From assembly GCA_022825895.1 (NCBI GenBank), contig JAJDVX010000030.1, positions 1-64,000 on the forward strand: DNA of 64,000 nucleotides, in the 5' to 3' direction. Source of the DNA: Chloroflexota bacterium. Lineage in GTDB: Bacteria; Chloroflexota; UBA11872. Positions 43,491-49,782 of this stretch are shown piece by piece (position 1 is the first letter of the stretch; every line of letters starts with the position of its first letter). Both the position numbers and the translations under genes were made by a program. The notes under the pieces are model-generated. The model was not told where the DNA came from and ran no database searches. It saw only the letters and a list, made by a program, of their open reading frames with translations.

Positions 43491-43646
43491 AGCTCACCTC
43501 GCATGCCACGATCAAAGAATACGCTGACCACGCCCTGCACCCTCGGCTCGCATGAGCGCACATCGGCATGAGGGTTACTTCGCACAGGCACAGAATTGCG
43601 TTCCAGGGAGCTGACGCACCGAAGGACCGGCCAAGCCCATCGCGCA

Positions 43647-44855
43647 ATGCCCGGCACCTTGACCAAAGACGTCCCGACGTCTAAATTCCAGCCCGAGATG
43701 ACCGACGAGCACACGCGCCAGGCCCCCGGACGCGTACGCGACGGCATCGTGCAGGTGCTGTCGCACACCTCGCAGCCGCTCTCGGTCAAGGAGATTGAGG
43801 AGCGCGTATCCCAGGTCGCGGGACCCGCCCGAGGCTCCTCCATACGTTCGTACCTCCGGCTCAACACCCCAACCGTGTTCGCCCGCGAGCGACGCGGCGT
43901 CTATCGGCTTCGCTCATCGGCCGAATCCGGCGTCCAGCCAGAGATGCCGGCCGTGCGCGAGTGGGAACCCCCGGCCTCGTTCGGTCGGGCGACCCTCTAC
44001 CACGCCGACTGTTTTGACTGGCTGCGCGAGCAGGACGACGCCAGCATTCACGCCGTCGTCACCGATCCGCCCTATGGCCTGCACGAATACACCCACGAAC
44101 AGCAGGCCAAGCTGCGTCGAGGCCGGGGCGGAGTCTGGCGGATTCCTCCATCGTTCGACGGCCATCGACGCTCGCCGTTGCCACGCTTCACAACGCTTAA
44201 GCCTGAGCAGCTCAACGACATCCGGACATTCTTCTTCGTCTGGGCCCGCCTGCTGCTCCCCAAGCTCGTACCCGGCGCGCAGGTCGTGGTGGCTTCCAAT
44301 CCCCTGCTGTCGTATCTCGTTTCAGGGGCGCTGGCCGATGCGGGATTGGAGCGCCGCGGTGAGATTGCCCGACTCACCATGACCATGCGCGGAGGCGACC
44401 GGCCGAAAGCCGCACACAGGGAGTACTCGGAAGTCAGCGTGATGCCGCGTTCCATGTGGGAACCGTGGGTCGTCTACCGGAAACCCATCGAGGGCCGCGT
44501 CCAGGACAACCTGCGAACCTGGGGAACGGGCGGCTTCCGCCGGCCGGTTCCCGACAAGCCGTTCGGCGATGTCATCGCCTCCGCCCCCACCCGAAAGGCC
44601 GAGCGCGACCTGGCGCCGCATCCCAGCCTCAAGCCCCAGGCCTTCCTGCGCACGCTCGTTCGTGCCGTCTTGCCCCTCGGCGAAGGCGTGGTCCTCGACC
44701 CCTTTGCCGGCGCCGGCTCCACCCTCGCCGCCGCCGAGGCCGTGGGCTACCAGAGCATCGGCATCGAACAGGACGAACGCTATTTCGCGTTGGCCAAAAG
44801 AGCGATTCCAAAGCTGACCAGCTATACCCCGAACGGCTGTCAGCCCAGCCGTTAG
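43647..44855 (+). CDS. Solitary DNA methyltransferase with N-terminal HTH-like domain
   Basis: A 402-residue adenine/cytosine-N4 methyltransferase of the beta order: DPPYGLHEYTHEQQ at residues 140-153 (motif IV) precedes FAGAGST at 353-359 (motif I). The first 90 residues look like a winged helix: GRVRDGIVQVLSHTSQPLSV and SIRSYLRLNTPTVFARERRG resemble HTH domains fused to methylases in some mobile elements. No endonuclease gene is adjacent, so it may be an orphan or regulatory methylase. The start is uncertain: ATG at 43698 and TTG at 43596 are alternatives, none with a good binding site. Confidence 0.85.
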   Translation: MPGTLTKDVPTSKFQPEMTDEHTRQAPGRVRDGIVQVLSHTSQPLSVKEIEERVSQVAGPARGSSIRSYLRLNTPTVFARERRGVYRLRSSAESGVQPEMPAVREWEPPASFGRATLYHADCFDWLREQDDASIHAVVTDPPYGLHEYTHEQQAKLRRGRGGVWRIPPSFDGHRRSPLPRFTTLKPEQLNDIRTFFFVWARLLLPKLVPGAQVVVASNPLLSYLVSGALADAGLERRGEIARLTMTMRGGDRPKAAHREYSEVSVMPRSMWEPWVVYRKPIEGRVQDNLRTWGTGGFRRPVPDKPFGDVIASAPTRKAERDLAPHPSLKPQAFLRTLVRAVLPLGEGVVLDPFAGAGSTLAAAEAVGYQSIGIEQDERYFALAKRAIPKLTSYTPNGCQPSR

Positions 44856-46077: not shown

Positions 46078-46151
46078 GACCAACCAATTCCAAAGCGGTT
46101 TATTCTGGGACTCCGGTCATAAATCCCATCAATCCAATTGGAGCCAGAACA

Positions 46152-46168
46152 AGTAGTTATGGACTTGA
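46152..46168 (+). repeat. Left terminal inverted repeat of the IS1595-like element
   Basis: AGTAGTTATGGACTTGA, whose first 14 bases occur inverted at the right end. The sequence continues CAGGGTGACC; TTGACA at 46165-46170 is a perfect -35 box pointing at the transposase, with no good -10 at 17 bases. A 6-base inverted repeat GTGACC/GGTCAC (46173-46190) follows, a possible operator. Confidence 0.75.
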
Positions 46169-46221
46169 CAGGGTGACCCTAATCGGTCACAGTTAGGCAT
46201 CGGTTGAACGAGGGCGACGCG

Positions 46222-47106
46222 ATGGACCTGATCCGAGTCTTCACCCGATTCCCCGACGATGAGGCGTGCGTTGAGCACTTGGAGCGCGTCCGCTGGGGCG
46301 ACACCCCGACGTGCCCGCACTGCCAGTCCACGAACGTCGGGCGCCGAAATGATGAGCGCCGGATCGCCAGGTGGAATTGCCGTACGTGCCGCGCCAGCTT
46401 CTCGGTCTTGTCTGGCACCATCTTTCACAAGACTCGAATCCCGCTGCCCAAGTGGTTTCTGGCCATCTCGCTCACGCTGAACGCGAAGAAGAGCCCGTCC
46501 AGTCACCAACTCGCCCGCGATCTCGATATGAACCAGAAGTCGGCTTGGCGCATGGCCATGCAGATTCGCGCCGCAATGGTGCACGAACGTGAACTGATGA
46601 GCGGGATCGTCGAGGCCGATGAGGCCTTTTTCGGCAGGAAGCCGCGCAATCGGAATCGTCACGGTGACGACGATGAGCCAAAGGCCCCGCGCGGGCGAGG
46701 GACGCGCAATGTACCGGTCGACGGCGTCATGGATCCCAGCGGCCACGTAGCAGCGCAACCGTCCGCTCGCGTGACCGGCCGCGACTTGCACGCCTTTATC
46801 GAATGTCTCGTGGGTAAAGACGCCAGCGTGCTTATGACTGACCAGTGGCCAGCGTGCCGTCGCGCGGGCCGGACTATGCCCCACGCGGTCGTGGACCACG
46901 CCGCCCGCTATGTCGATGGCTTCATCCAAGTTAACTCGATCGAGGGCTTCTGGGCGCTCGCGAAGCGCTTCTGGATGGGCAGCCACAACCACTGCAGTCA
47001 CCAGCACCCGGCCGCCTACATCGTCGAATCCTGCTTCAAGCTCAACGCCCGCAACCACGACAGTCCGTTTGGCGCCTTTGTTCGCGACGCGGTTGCGGTC
47101 GCATGA
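46222..47106 (+). CDS. IS1595-family transposase
   Basis: A 294-residue transposase. An N-terminal zinc ribbon (Cys31, Cys34, Cys53, Cys56: CPHC and CRTC) is followed by a helix-turn-helix-like region (SHQLARDLDMNQKSAWRMAM) and the ISXO2-like catalytic domain: Asp133 in GIVEADEAFFGRK, Asp207 in LMTDQWPA, and the VNSIEGFWALAKRFW block with Glu241. Full length, so possibly active. ATG at 46222 has GAGGG at proper distance; TTG at 46204 is also open. Its stop overlaps the next start. Confidence 0.92.
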   Translation: MDLIRVFTRFPDDEACVEHLERVRWGDTPTCPHCQSTNVGRRNDERRIARWNCRTCRASFSVLSGTIFHKTRIPLPKWFLAISLTLNAKKSPSSHQLARDLDMNQKSAWRMAMQIRAAMVHERELMSGIVEADEAFFGRKPRNRNRHGDDDEPKAPRGRGTRNVPVDGVMDPSGHVAAQPSARVTGRDLHAFIECLVGKDASVLMTDQWPACRRAGRTMPHAVVDHAARYVDGFIQVNSIEGFWALAKRFWMGSHNHCSHQHPAAYIVESCFKLNARNHDSPFGAFVRDAVAVA

Positions 47107-48722
47107 ATCGACTCTATTACGGCGATTGCTTGACCATCCTGCAAGACTTCGGCCTGTCGAGCGTCGACCTGATCTATCTGGACCCACCCTTCAACTCAAA
47201 CCGGCAATACAACGCGATTTACCGAGATCATACGGGCCGCCCGCTGCCTGATCAGGTCGAAGCGTTCTGCGATACTTGGGAGTTGGACGATGAGCGCGAG
47301 CGCGCGATTCGTGCCATGCCGGTGCTCATGCGCGAAAGCGGCATCGACGATGACACGGCGGAACTCTGGCGGCTCTGGATGCGGGCGCTGCGCCATACGC
47401 AGCCGCGCCTGCTGGCTTATCTGTCCTACATGGCGCAGCGGCTTCTCATCATGCACCGCATCCTCAAGCCTACTGGCTCGATCTACCTGCACTGCGACCC
47501 GACAGCCAGCCACTACATTAAGGCGCTGCTGGATGCAATTTTCAAGCACGACAACTTCAGGAACGAGATTGTCTGGAAGCGCACGTCGGGCCACAGTGAC
47601 GCTCAACGCTTCGGAAGTGTCCACGACACCATCCTGTTCTATGCTCGCTCCCCACACGCCACCTGGAACCCAACGTTTCAGCCGTTTGATGAGTCGTACG
47701 TCACGCAGTACTACCGCTATCAGGACGAGGACGGGCGACGGTGGATGTCAGGCGACATCAGCGCGTCGGGTCTTCGTGGTGGTGGGTACGAGTACGAATG
47801 GAAGGGGATACGGCGCACCTGGCGCGTGCCGCAGACAACCATGAAGCGGCTCGATCAGGAAGGGCGAATCTTCTACACCCGTAATGGGATTGCTCGGATT
47901 AAGCGATACCTGGACGAGTCGGACGGTCTACGGGCACAAGACGTGTGGACCGATATTGGCGCACTGCGGTCCTGGCATAAGGAACGAATGGGCTACGCAA
48001 CACAGAAGCCTGTTGCGCTATTGGAACGGATCATCGCAGCGAGCAGCAATCCGGGCGACGTGGTGCTCGATCCATTCTGCGGGTGCGCCAGCACGCTCGA
48101 AGCGGCACACAACCTTGGCCGTCGCTGGATCGGAGTCGATATCGCCATCCACGCCATTAAGCGCGTCGCGAGTGTTCGGCTTACGGAGCGGTGCGGACTG
48201 ATCGAGGGCGAAGACTTCACCGTTGAAGGCGTGCCGCGCAATCTTGAAGGTGCGCAGGACTTATGGGAGCGCGACAAGTACCACTTCCAGAAATGGGCGG
48301 TCGAACAGGTTGACGGATTCGTAACCACGAAGCGCACGTCGGACGGTGGGATCGACGGGCGGCTCTATTTCGCGCTCCACAACGATTCCGACCTGCAAAG
48401 CATGGTGCTGGAAGTGAAGGGCGGGCGGACGGTCAGCATCCGCGATCTGCGGGCGCTGCAAGGCGTGCTGGAAAACGGGGAGGCGCTGCTGGCCGGCCTG
48501 ATTGCGCTCAACCCCTTAGGACCTACCCAGGCGCGAAACTTCGCCAGATTCGCCGCCAGCGCGGGCACGATGGACGTGTTGGGCATCGAATACCCGCGGC
48601 TGCAAGTCTTGACGGTGGCGGAGATTCTGGACGGGCGGCGATTCAAGACCCCGACAGTGGTCGGACGACATGAATCACAGCCCGTCCTACCAGGAATCCC
48701 GAGTTTGGCATCAAAGGTTTAG
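47103..48722 (+). CDS. Beta-class DNA methyltransferase fused to a PD-(D/E)xK nuclease domain
   Basis: A 539-residue fusion. The methylase part carries LIYLDPPFNSNRQYNAIY (motif IV, DPPF at 27-30) and later VVLDPFCGCASTLEAAHNLG (motif I, FCGCAST at 325-331), the beta order. The C-terminal region, about residues 385-500, has an Mrr-like nuclease pattern: Asp418 in DGGIDGR and ExK at 437-439 in MVLEVKGG. One chain could therefore both modify and cut DNA. It overlaps the transposase stop as ATGA, so both are made from one mRNA. A tail of about 35 residues follows. Confidence 0.88.
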   Translation: MNRLYYGDCLTILQDFGLSSVDLIYLDPPFNSNRQYNAIYRDHTGRPLPDQVEAFCDTWELDDERERAIRAMPVLMRESGIDDDTAELWRLWMRALRHTQPRLLAYLSYMAQRLLIMHRILKPTGSIYLHCDPTASHYIKALLDAIFKHDNFRNEIVWKRTSGHSDAQRFGSVHDTILFYARSPHATWNPTFQPFDESYVTQYYRYQDEDGRRWMSGDISASGLRGGGYEYEWKGIRRTWRVPQTTMKRLDQEGRIFYTRNGIARIKRYLDESDGLRAQDVWTDIGALRSWHKERMGYATQKPVALLERIIAASSNPGDVVLDPFCGCASTLEAAHNLGRRWIGVDIAIHAIKRVASVRLTERCGLIEGEDFTVEGVPRNLEGAQDLWERDKYHFQKWAVEQVDGFVTTKRTSDGGIDGRLYFALHNDSDLQSMVLEVKGGRTVSIRDLRALQGVLENGEALLAGLIALNPLGPTQARNFARFAASAGTMDVLGIEYPRLQVLTVAEILDGRRFKTPTVVGRHESQPVLPGIPSLASKV

Positions 48723-48878
48723 CTGAATGAGCCGCAGAATCCCTGTGAGCAGAAGTCCGACCAGCAGCCCTAGCGCACAATTCAGGAGCCACACCAAGAA
48801 TCCGTGGGCACGCGACGTGGACGAGGAACTGCTGGGCTTGGCCGCCTCGTTGCTCATGGTAGGGCATCTCATGATCAT
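48711..48878 (-). CDS. Small single-pass membrane protein in the transposon
   Basis: A 55-residue protein, too short for many callers. ATG at 48878 overlaps the stop of the upstream membrane-anchored gene as ATGA. The N-terminal half is Ser-rich and polar; the C-terminal half is one strong helix (GFLVWLLNCALGLLVGLLLT). Internal ATGs at 48872 and 48857 could also be used. Its last codons overlap the convergent methylase-nuclease end by 12 bases. Coupling to its neighbour is the main support. Confidence 0.55.
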   Translation of the reverse strand: MIMRCPTMSNEAAKPSSSSSTSRAHGFLVWLLNCALGLLVGLLLTGILRLIQLNL

Positions 48879-49516
48879 GCCCAGATCATCGTAGCAGAAG
48901 CCTCAGCCGCCGTCGGTGTGGTTGGCGAGGCCGGCGGCATTGCGTCTTCGGGCATCGATCCCTGACCACACGCACGAAGCACTTGAATGGCGGGATGAAT
49001 GTTCGTCCGATAGTCGAACTCGAAGCGGGCTGCGTATGACGGGCCTCCTTCGTCAAATCGTCCCCAAAACGAAAACGAAGGCGTACGCGTGATCCGTTGG
49101 GCCAGTCGGAGGTCGGAAGGTGCCGTGACATAGGACTCGGTCGCTCGAAAGCCCCACTGGCTTGTGAGGTGTTCGCCTTCGCCAATGCGATAGGTCACTT
49201 GGACATGACCCTGGTAGCCGCTAACGACATGAATCGGAGTCACGAGCTGTACGTGAACATCAACGCGTTGCTCGGGCAAGACGCACTCAATGATCAGCCA
49301 ATGACCCTCACGCGACCGGTGCTTGACCGTCTTGTGGTACTCGCCTGACTCTGGATGAAAGTGAGAATCGTCGGTCCACGCAATAGGCTTCGGGATGAAT
49401 CGCGACTCGACTTCATCCCAGACAAGTGAGGTGATGGGAACCGCTAGAGCGACTGCAATCAAGACTTGAATCAATATGGACTGAAGGAAACCTTGGACGA
49501 TGCCCGAGAAATTCAT
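48875..49516 (-). CDS. Membrane-anchored hypothetical protein in the transposon
   Basis: A 213-residue protein: one N-terminal helix (GFLQSILIQVLIAVALAVPI, residues 9-28) then a beta-rich soluble domain that would lie outside the membrane (HWLIIECVLPEQRVDVHVQL, HVQVTYRIGEGEHLTSQWGF). The C-terminus is Pro/Thr/Ala-rich. No family recognised. First gene of a two-gene unit running against the methylase. It could be a sensor or effector partner, or unrelated cargo. Confidence 0.65.
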   Translation of the reverse strand: MNFSGIVQGFLQSILIQVLIAVALAVPITSLVWDEVESRFIPKPIAWTDDSHFHPESGEYHKTVKHRSREGHWLIIECVLPEQRVDVHVQLVTPIHVVSGYQGHVQVTYRIGEGEHLTSQWGFRATESYVTAPSDLRLAQRITRTPSFSFWGRFDEGGPSYAARFEFDYRTNIHPAIQVLRACGQGSMPEDAMPPASPTTPTAAEASATMIWA

Positions 49517-49575
49517 TCACGTAATCCTTCAACGCCGATCCTTCTACCGCCACGCCCTCAGCCTAGCACGTTTGA

Positions 49576-49592
49576 TCTAGTCCATAACTACT
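49576..49592 (-). repeat. Right terminal inverted repeat of the IS1595-like element
   Basis: Read on the minus strand it is AGTAGTTATGGACTAGA, matching the left end in 16 of 17 positions. It lies 59 bases beyond the start of the membrane-anchored gene. Outside bases (CACTCCGT) do not match the left flank (CCAGAACA), so no target duplication is visible. The rest of the gap to 49782 holds no gene. Confidence 0.75.
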
Positions 49593-49782
49593 CACTCCGT
49601 TTCGGCAAAGCCATCGTCTAATTTCCTCTCCGGGGGGAGGGCAGCGCCTGTACCGGACACGATCCGAGGATGACGGGTCTTCCCGGCTCACAACCCCAAA
49701 CAGGCCACAACCAGGAAAACAGTAGACGCAACGAATATACGATGGCCGGAAGTCATCCCGTCCGCCGGCCACAGGAGGCGAC

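Follow-up and report, generated by a model that had tools for sequence, protein, structure and literature searches.

A stretch of 64,000 nucleotides from a Chloroflexota bacterium (GenBank assembly GCA_022825895.1, contig JAJDVX010000030.1, positions 1 to 64,000 of the forward strand; the whole stretch is called the window below) contains at 46145-49599 an element that we consider likely to be an insertion sequence (IS) of the IS1595 family carrying a one-chain restriction–modification (R-M) enzyme as its second gene. Between its ends, placed by eye through comparison with relatives, lie an IS1595 transposase, a methylase–nuclease and two convergent membrane-like genes. Target duplications and near-identical copies in unrelated flanks indicate that the core of the element (transposase plus methylase gene) has moved as a unit in relatives, with the methylase gene on board. 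From the sequence we infer that the enzyme methylates DNA, cuts DNA and acts in defence. The features of the window copy are as follows.

46145..46168 (+), left terminal inverted repeat, with its core at 46152-46168 and the outermost 7 bases placed from relatives
46165-46170 (+), -35-like TTGACA, running out of the left repeat
46222..47106 (+), IS1595-family transposase, 294 aa; a TTG start at 46204 would make it 300 aa
47103..48722 (+), methylase–nuclease fusion of 539 aa; overlaps the transposase gene by ATGA; structure model with a mean pLDDT of 86.7
47181..47192 (+), methylase motif IV DPPF, residues 27-30; 47/47 in the alignment
47595..47972 (+), target-recognition-like variable block, residues ~165-290; low identity, many gaps
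48069..48086 (+), methylase motif I DPFCGC, residues 323-328; follows both motif IV and the variable block
48234..48653 (+), Mrr-like PD-(D/E)xK nuclease domain, residues 378-517 (D418, E437, K439); model mean pLDDT 91.6
48711..48878 (-), 55-aa protein; overlaps the gene upstream by ATGA; one hydrophobic segment judged by eye; no family match
48875..49516 (-), 213-aa protein, convergent to the methylase; N-terminal segment hydrophobic as judged by eye; family matches all below cut-off
49576..49599 (-), right terminal inverted repeat; outer 7 bases from relatives

A first-pass annotation, made from the letters alone, had described a full-length IS1595-type transposase coupled by ATGA to a 539-residue methylase–Mrr fusion with an Asp418, Glu437-x-Lys439 site, together with two convergent, ATGA-coupled genes for a membrane-anchored and a 55-residue protein, the four enclosed by a 14-base inverted repeat. 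All of these parts are present where it placed them, with the membrane character judged by eye and residue 437 variable across the family.

Movement of the core in relatives

A scan of genome contigs from 84,980 species with six peptides of the window methylase–nuclease, a procedure that favours close relatives, returned 70 loci, 36 of which show some similarity to the window transposase. The first-pass annotation had offered the absence of the repeats from relatives of the transposase as a finding that would speak against it; in all 32 of the linked loci tested (L030, L066, L070 and L074 were left out) the best repeat pair belongs to one kind that resembles CGGAATTAGTAGTTATGGGCTTGAC or, at five loci, to a second that resembles CGGACTGGTACGCTTTTGGACTT, both consensus sequences being drawn by eye. 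One further element each comes from two sister genomes. Perfect 8-bp target duplications bracket 21 of 34 elements and 7 of 8 positions match in two more, with the window copy counted as a miss, compared to a perfect match in 0.9% of controls in which right flanks were swapped. These 21 duplications are 85% A+T, in keeping with the mostly AT-rich 8-bp duplications of the IS1595 family, as described for ISApl4 targets. A perfect 8-bp duplication is also present in 8 of 10 additional members of the clade.

Repeated copies within single genomes point the same way. One Rhodobacteraceae genome holds six copies of one element, with shared pieces 96.6-100% identical and unrelated flanks. Only one copy (L062) is intact, the other five being broken by a related insert of ~1.4 kb; two of the interrupted copies (L059 and L060) agree at every position over 3,830 bp although their target duplications differ, and the other four copies are without duplication. 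In another case, two identical, internally deleted elements of 1.03 kb (L067 and L068) have intact repeats and lie in unrelated flanks of one genome, with no target duplication found at either; they appear as if moved in trans. The records that hold linked loci bear the names of several phyla, including Pseudomonadota, Chloroflexota, Acidobacteriota, Nitrospirota and Myxococcota, the hosts being mostly metagenome bins that are possibly mis-sorted.

The methylase–nuclease protein

In an alignment of 47 family proteins the order of parts is motif IV, variable block, motif I (DPFxGC) and C-terminal nuclease, and the order of the methylase motifs around the block is what we take to be that of the beta class. 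The window protein has a strong match to the N4/N6 DNA methylase family. In the Protein Data Bank (PDB) its methylase part is closest to EcoP15I Mod, RsrI and M.BceJIV, and the best matches in fold and in sequence also include CcrM. A comparison of the C-terminal domain with Mrr profiles, which the first-pass annotation had proposed as a check, bears out the assignment for the family: Mrr_cat is matched at E <=0.01 by 34 of the 47 members, with the window protein, taken singly, just under the Pfam cut-off (19.8 vs 21 bits). D418 and K439 are invariant in 47/47, and residue 437 is E in 25 members, S in 14 and Q in 8. The nearest solved folds to the model of the nuclease domain are those of AspBHI and MspJI (three chains, E 7e-4 to 1e-3, TM ~0.6); a sequence search of the PDB with the nuclease profile gave 0 matches.

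The ratio of nonsynonymous to synonymous substitution (dN/dS) is 0.025 and 0.055 for the nuclease in two pairs of relatives, 0.038 and 0.043 for the transposase and 0.06-0.19 for the methylase parts, the second pair being near saturation and a third saturated. In both measurable pairs, these values indicate purifying selection on the nuclease.

The variable block

Between the two methylase parts, the protein changes character. Mean pairwise identity falls to 0.27, with 60% gaps, at residues 181-290, compared to 0.57 and 0.64 in the flanking parts. Identity in the block bears almost no relation to identity in the rest of the protein (r 0.06 over 1,010 pairs with >=60 aligned block positions, pairs that are not independent and identities that depend on the alignment), whereas the two flanking parts follow each other closely (r 0.90 over 1,081 pairs of the 47 proteins). 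The window block is 73% identical to that of a transposase-free relative, L033, with 46% in the rest, but only 35% identical to that of its nearest kin, L009, with 77% in the rest; in all, it matches six proteins of the transposase-free type at 63-73%, which is hard to explain by misalignment. We read these patterns as evidence that the block has its own history, independent of the rest of the protein, and we infer that it recognises DNA.

A further case is a pair of elements in sister genomes, L079 (G010) and L078r (G013), whose transposases are 99% identical and nucleases 98% identical, with 89% in the N-terminal and 80% in the C-terminal methylase part and 39% in the variable block. Their right flanks have no similarity over the 3 kb compared, the left side of L078r being a contig end, and the two look like separate insertions. 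They share a short target, TTTGGAAA, inside hairpin-like sequence (AAGAGTTTTTTGGAAAAAACTCTT in L079), possibly reflecting a preference for terminators.

Transposase and expression

The IS1595 DDE domain and the N-terminal zinc ribbon of the window transposase both score above curated cut-offs (PF12762, 63.3 bits against 27; PF12760, 40 bits against 25.4; NF033547, 137.2 bits against 75). Among 25 aligned transposases D133 and E241 are invariant and D207 is conserved in at least 90%, and these are presumably the catalytic residues. The four-base overlap of transposase and methylase genes is retained in 21 of 24 pairs (ATGA in 18, GTGA in 3). Across 23 elements, counted without a random control, 19 left ends contain TTGAC, compared to 4 right ends; in 17 left ends a loose -10-like hexamer follows TTGAC by 16-19 bases. 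The window copy has no -10 box of the same pattern, though its -35 is present. The operon is probably read from a promoter within the left repeat, as the placing of these boxes suggests.

The copy in the window

The inverted repeat of the window copy, AGTAGTTATGGACT, lies at 46152-46165 (+) and 49579-49592 (-), and can be extended to 17 nt at 94%; by eye, relatives put the true ends ~7 bases farther out on either side, at 46145 and 49599. A chance origin of the repeats was rejected: the sequence occurs nowhere else in the window at <=2 mismatches, against a chance expectation of 0.03, and genome-wide the element's own pair are the only two occurrences at <=1 mismatch. No 8-bp target duplication surrounds this copy, the best match being 5/8 positions.

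The first-pass annotation had also suggested looking for empty sites. Of seven sister stretches around the neighbouring gene, none (0/7) contains DNA resembling the element, and both neighbours are kept together in two (G011 and G013); a base-precise empty site was sought in these stretches and not found, the intergenic region being too diverged. Nor do these seven stretches, including the two that keep the neighbours together, have the membrane genes at the same locus without the transposase, which the annotation had named as a further observation that would speak against it. Nearby in the window, a second putative DNA methylase open reading frame (ORF) lies at 43596-44855, its end ~1.3 kb upstream of the element; it encodes 419 aa, in which DPPYG and DPFAGAGS were picked out by eye.

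Variants of the clade and the enzyme outside transposons

Transposases of the clade were surveyed at E <=1e-70 in 400 genomes of the window's phylum, drawn from a larger number, and were found in 9 genomes at 17 places, 16 of which were inspected (L159 was left out). Two of these elements, L166 (G262) and L167 (G217), carry a convergent methylase–HNH chain in place of the Mrr type (PF01844, E 3e-15 and 4e-14), and their transposases are placed apart in the transposase tree. L166 is bounded by perfect 21-base repeats and has no target duplication; L167 is bounded by imperfect repeats and lies at a contig end. At L165, also at a contig end and with element ends not established, a convergent methylase–Mrr gene is split by a frameshift. 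Six others (L168, L169, L170, L172, L173 and L174), five of them in G120, are elements of three kinds. All are flanked by a perfect 8-bp target duplication and contain convergent genes whose products seem, by eye, to be exported or membrane-bound; none of the six has a methylase match, one has a DUF4234 match just above cut-off and one has HELFH by eye. In genome G262 there are four transposase places, and the methylase–nuclease genes at them differ. In the source genome itself, the stretches around two other IS1595 transposases contain no methylase–nuclease gene.

The enzyme is also found on its own. Of 58 proteins in the family tree, 30 come from loci without a transposase, and linked and unlinked proteins are clustered, with neither group forming one clade. 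A transposase profile search of the unlinked loci found none, and a search for inverted repeats around 19 loci (17 of them without a transposase) found no IS1595-type ends; L011 and L044 have long inverted repeats whose sequence is unlike such ends. Relatives covering >=80% of the query occur in 8 of 26 plasmid records and 28 of 31 phage records with a match, and in the three such records inspected no transposase is annotated beside the enzyme. Four viral contigs also carry the enzyme, with no transposase match in the available stretch. At three loci without a transposase (L034, L047 and L025), two or three family methylase genes lie near or adjoining each other.

The membrane-like pair and right-hand tails

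A search for the four-gene set in other genomes, as the first-pass annotation had advised, recovers the transposase with the methylase–nuclease repeatedly, without the membrane pair. The pair has no match in 74 non-window loci and only a 20% match in 18 family genomes (in G004), although the shortness of the 55-aa protein prevents a sensitive search. Among 41 genomes of the class, its own included, the 213-aa protein has one more distant match (24%, G098), and the viral contigs that were searched hold no relative of it. The membrane pair is most likely a separate cargo of this copy. The view of the four genes as one functional unit was rejected, as the pair is private to the window copy as far as searched and most elements have no room for it.

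Across 31 elements (L022, L059, L060, L067, L068 and L069 were left out, and the end of the methylase was placed manually in L141, L142 and L144r), the right repeat starts <=46 bp from the methylase stop, or overlaps it, in 23; the other 8 have a longer right tail of 119-856 bp (three lengths approximate), and the only similarity among these tails is between L007 and L031. Three of seven loci scanned have tRNA-like genes between methylase and right repeat, two tRNA-Ala(tgc) and one tRNA-Tyr(gta) of 98 nt, at L007 7655-7741 (-), L031 2914-3004 (-) and L141 2718-2815 (+). The first of these is above the Rfam tRNA threshold, and those of L031 and L141 match tRNA-Sec below threshold. Among the other tails, that of L142, an element whose transposase is in two frames, has a short ORF for a very basic product (MSKKGCGKRSGKK...), whose ribosome-binding site looks good by eye, and that of L020 (7618-7892, 275 bp) opens a frame, MKCDYCGAV..., with a hydrophobic stretch (by eye) towards the right repeat.

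Weighing the alternatives

Read as an insertion sequence with its own R-M enzyme, the element would work as follows. Transcription would start from the promoter embedded in the left repeat; the methylase would mark one short sequence in the host chromosome, probably on adenine, and the nuclease would cut DNA in which that sequence is unmarked, such as phage or plasmid DNA. If one block sets the target of both activities, as we propose, its exchange would shift methylation and cutting together, and thus safely. The transposon would spread the enzyme and may gain from hosts that retain it, and in the window copy two membrane-like genes would have been added between the enzyme and the right end.

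Several observations weigh against this account. Residue 437 is not glutamate in part of the family (S in 14/47, Q in 8/47), and a profile named for inactive nucleases is also matched by 28/47 members; the nearest folds of the nuclease belong to modification-dependent enzymes, so its substrate might be modified DNA instead of unmodified DNA; and we know of no activity for any family member. The block comparisons vary with the alignment and use protein pairs that share ancestry with one another. The transposase-linked proteins do not form a single clade in the methylase tree, where well-supported branches force at least three changes. Many relatives are broken, including five of the six copies in one genome, where only two have duplications, and the window copy, with no target duplication and the sole repeat pair in its genome, may have lost its mobility.

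Two observations would suit a methylase that serves the transposon, marking its ends to tune transposition or shielding it from host restriction, with a nuclease-like domain that only binds DNA or helps to process it: the enzyme is coupled to the transposase by a conserved overlap, and the usual glutamate is absent from part of the family. Fixed self-marking predicts a stable target, however, and here the recognition-like block shows independent variation; in the measurable pairs the constraint on the nuclease equals that on the transposase, HNH replaces this nuclease in two elements, the enzyme has relatives with no transposase in the locus, and the two other IS1595 transposases of the source genome are without such a gene in the stretches examined. 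We regard service to the transposon as unlikely. The kinship of the nuclease model with AspBHI and MspJI invites another idea, that the Mrr-like domain cuts foreign-methylated DNA or particular arrangements of the enzyme's own marks; an enzyme that attacked its own mark would be suicidal if this cutting were not under tight conditions, the similarity is modest (TM ~0.6) and fold alone does not set substrate, and we give this idea rather little weight.

The first-pass annotation had left the choice between addiction and defence open for what it saw as a self-mobilising modification–restriction unit with membrane partners. Its transposon with a methylase–nuclease stands, and defence fits better than addiction. 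As an addiction unit, loss of the element would kill the cell through a nuclease outliving the methylase; both activities are in one chain and would be diluted or lost together, which makes addiction very improbable, and broken copies without an intact enzyme persist (one such genome also has an intact copy). Defence is favoured because the recognition-like block has an independent history. The membrane partners are the part of the proposal that fails to find support. It is true that these genes sit inside the repeats, that the six methylase-free elements with target duplications, of three kinds, have convergent genes that by eye seem exported or membrane-bound, and that the L020 tail opens a frame with a hydrophobic stretch. 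But those six elements have no methylase match, 23 of 31 methylase elements have no room for such genes and the pair is unmatched in the 74 other loci, and we see hardly any chance that the membrane genes are functional partners of the enzyme.

Comparison with known systems

An insertion sequence of the IS1595 family with an R-M enzyme of its own, our preferred reading, is built from components that are known in kind, passenger-carrying insertion sequences and one-chain R-M enzymes. IS1595 elements with passengers are known (transporter IS, or tIS; MTnSag1 and tISCpe8). The present element shares with them the IS1595 DDE transposase, inverted repeats and passengers inside the ends, and as in a tIS the passengers of the family move with the ends as a unit, with duplications outside the enclosing ends and copies in unrelated flanks. 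Unlike theirs, the passenger here is a coupled methylase–nuclease with an independently varying recognition-like block.

On the enzyme side, Type IIC/IIG enzymes such as MmeI, BpuSI and BtgZI likewise join a methylase and a PD-(D/E)xK nuclease in one protein, with a specificity module that serves both, and in such one-chain enzymes swapping the module alters both activities together (PMC4081073). The majority of them have an N-terminal nuclease and a gamma-class methylase, whereas here an N-terminal methylase of beta order precedes a C-terminal nuclease; BtgZI has the same domain order as the present protein, but with an alpha-class methylase and Q instead of E (PMC4081073). The window enzyme would thus work like a Type IIC enzyme, without being placed with the majority architecture. 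EcoP15I Mod, of Type III, and the beta-class RsrI, CcrM and M.BceJIV share its methylase fold. A Type III R-M system was not favoured: no Res helicase–nuclease gene lies between the repeats, and a nuclease domain is fused to the methylase instead. MspJI and AspBHI, nearest in fold to the C-terminal domain, belong to a family that pairs the nuclease with an SRA-like domain, and here it is paired with a methylase.

R-M genes on transposons and IS-driven movement of R-M genes have been described, for example PaeR7I with IS1 or IS5 (PMC3031569), and composite IS–R-M units resemble the present element in that R-M genes are moved by transposases (PMC3031569). In those cases separate systems are moved by outside insertion sequences; here the enzyme is the second gene of the insertion sequence's own operon. 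Among the matches listed from open-licence PMC papers, none deals with an association of IS1595 with a methylase–nuclease; Siguier et al. 2009, which defined IS1595 and lies outside that scope, might mention methylase passengers.

Conclusions

More speculatively, a clade of IS1595 may have specialised as a carrier of single-chain restriction enzymes. This would be a mobile defence unit of ~2.5 kb with interchangeable parts (an Mrr or HNH nuclease, and recognition blocks shared with transposase-free relatives), transcribed from its own repeat, crossing phyla and joined in the window to a second, envelope-acting module; we put this forward as a possibility that we do not favour at present. R-M systems, though often called mobile, as described ride plasmids, prophages, conjugative elements or composite transposons, and here an insertion sequence seems to have adopted a restriction enzyme as its own second gene. 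Elements that are nearly identical apart from their recognition-like blocks seem to have been caught while specificity was changing, and such natural pairs offer material for studying the origin of new restriction specificities. It also becomes testable whether a cargo of defence enzymes raises the success of a simple transposon.

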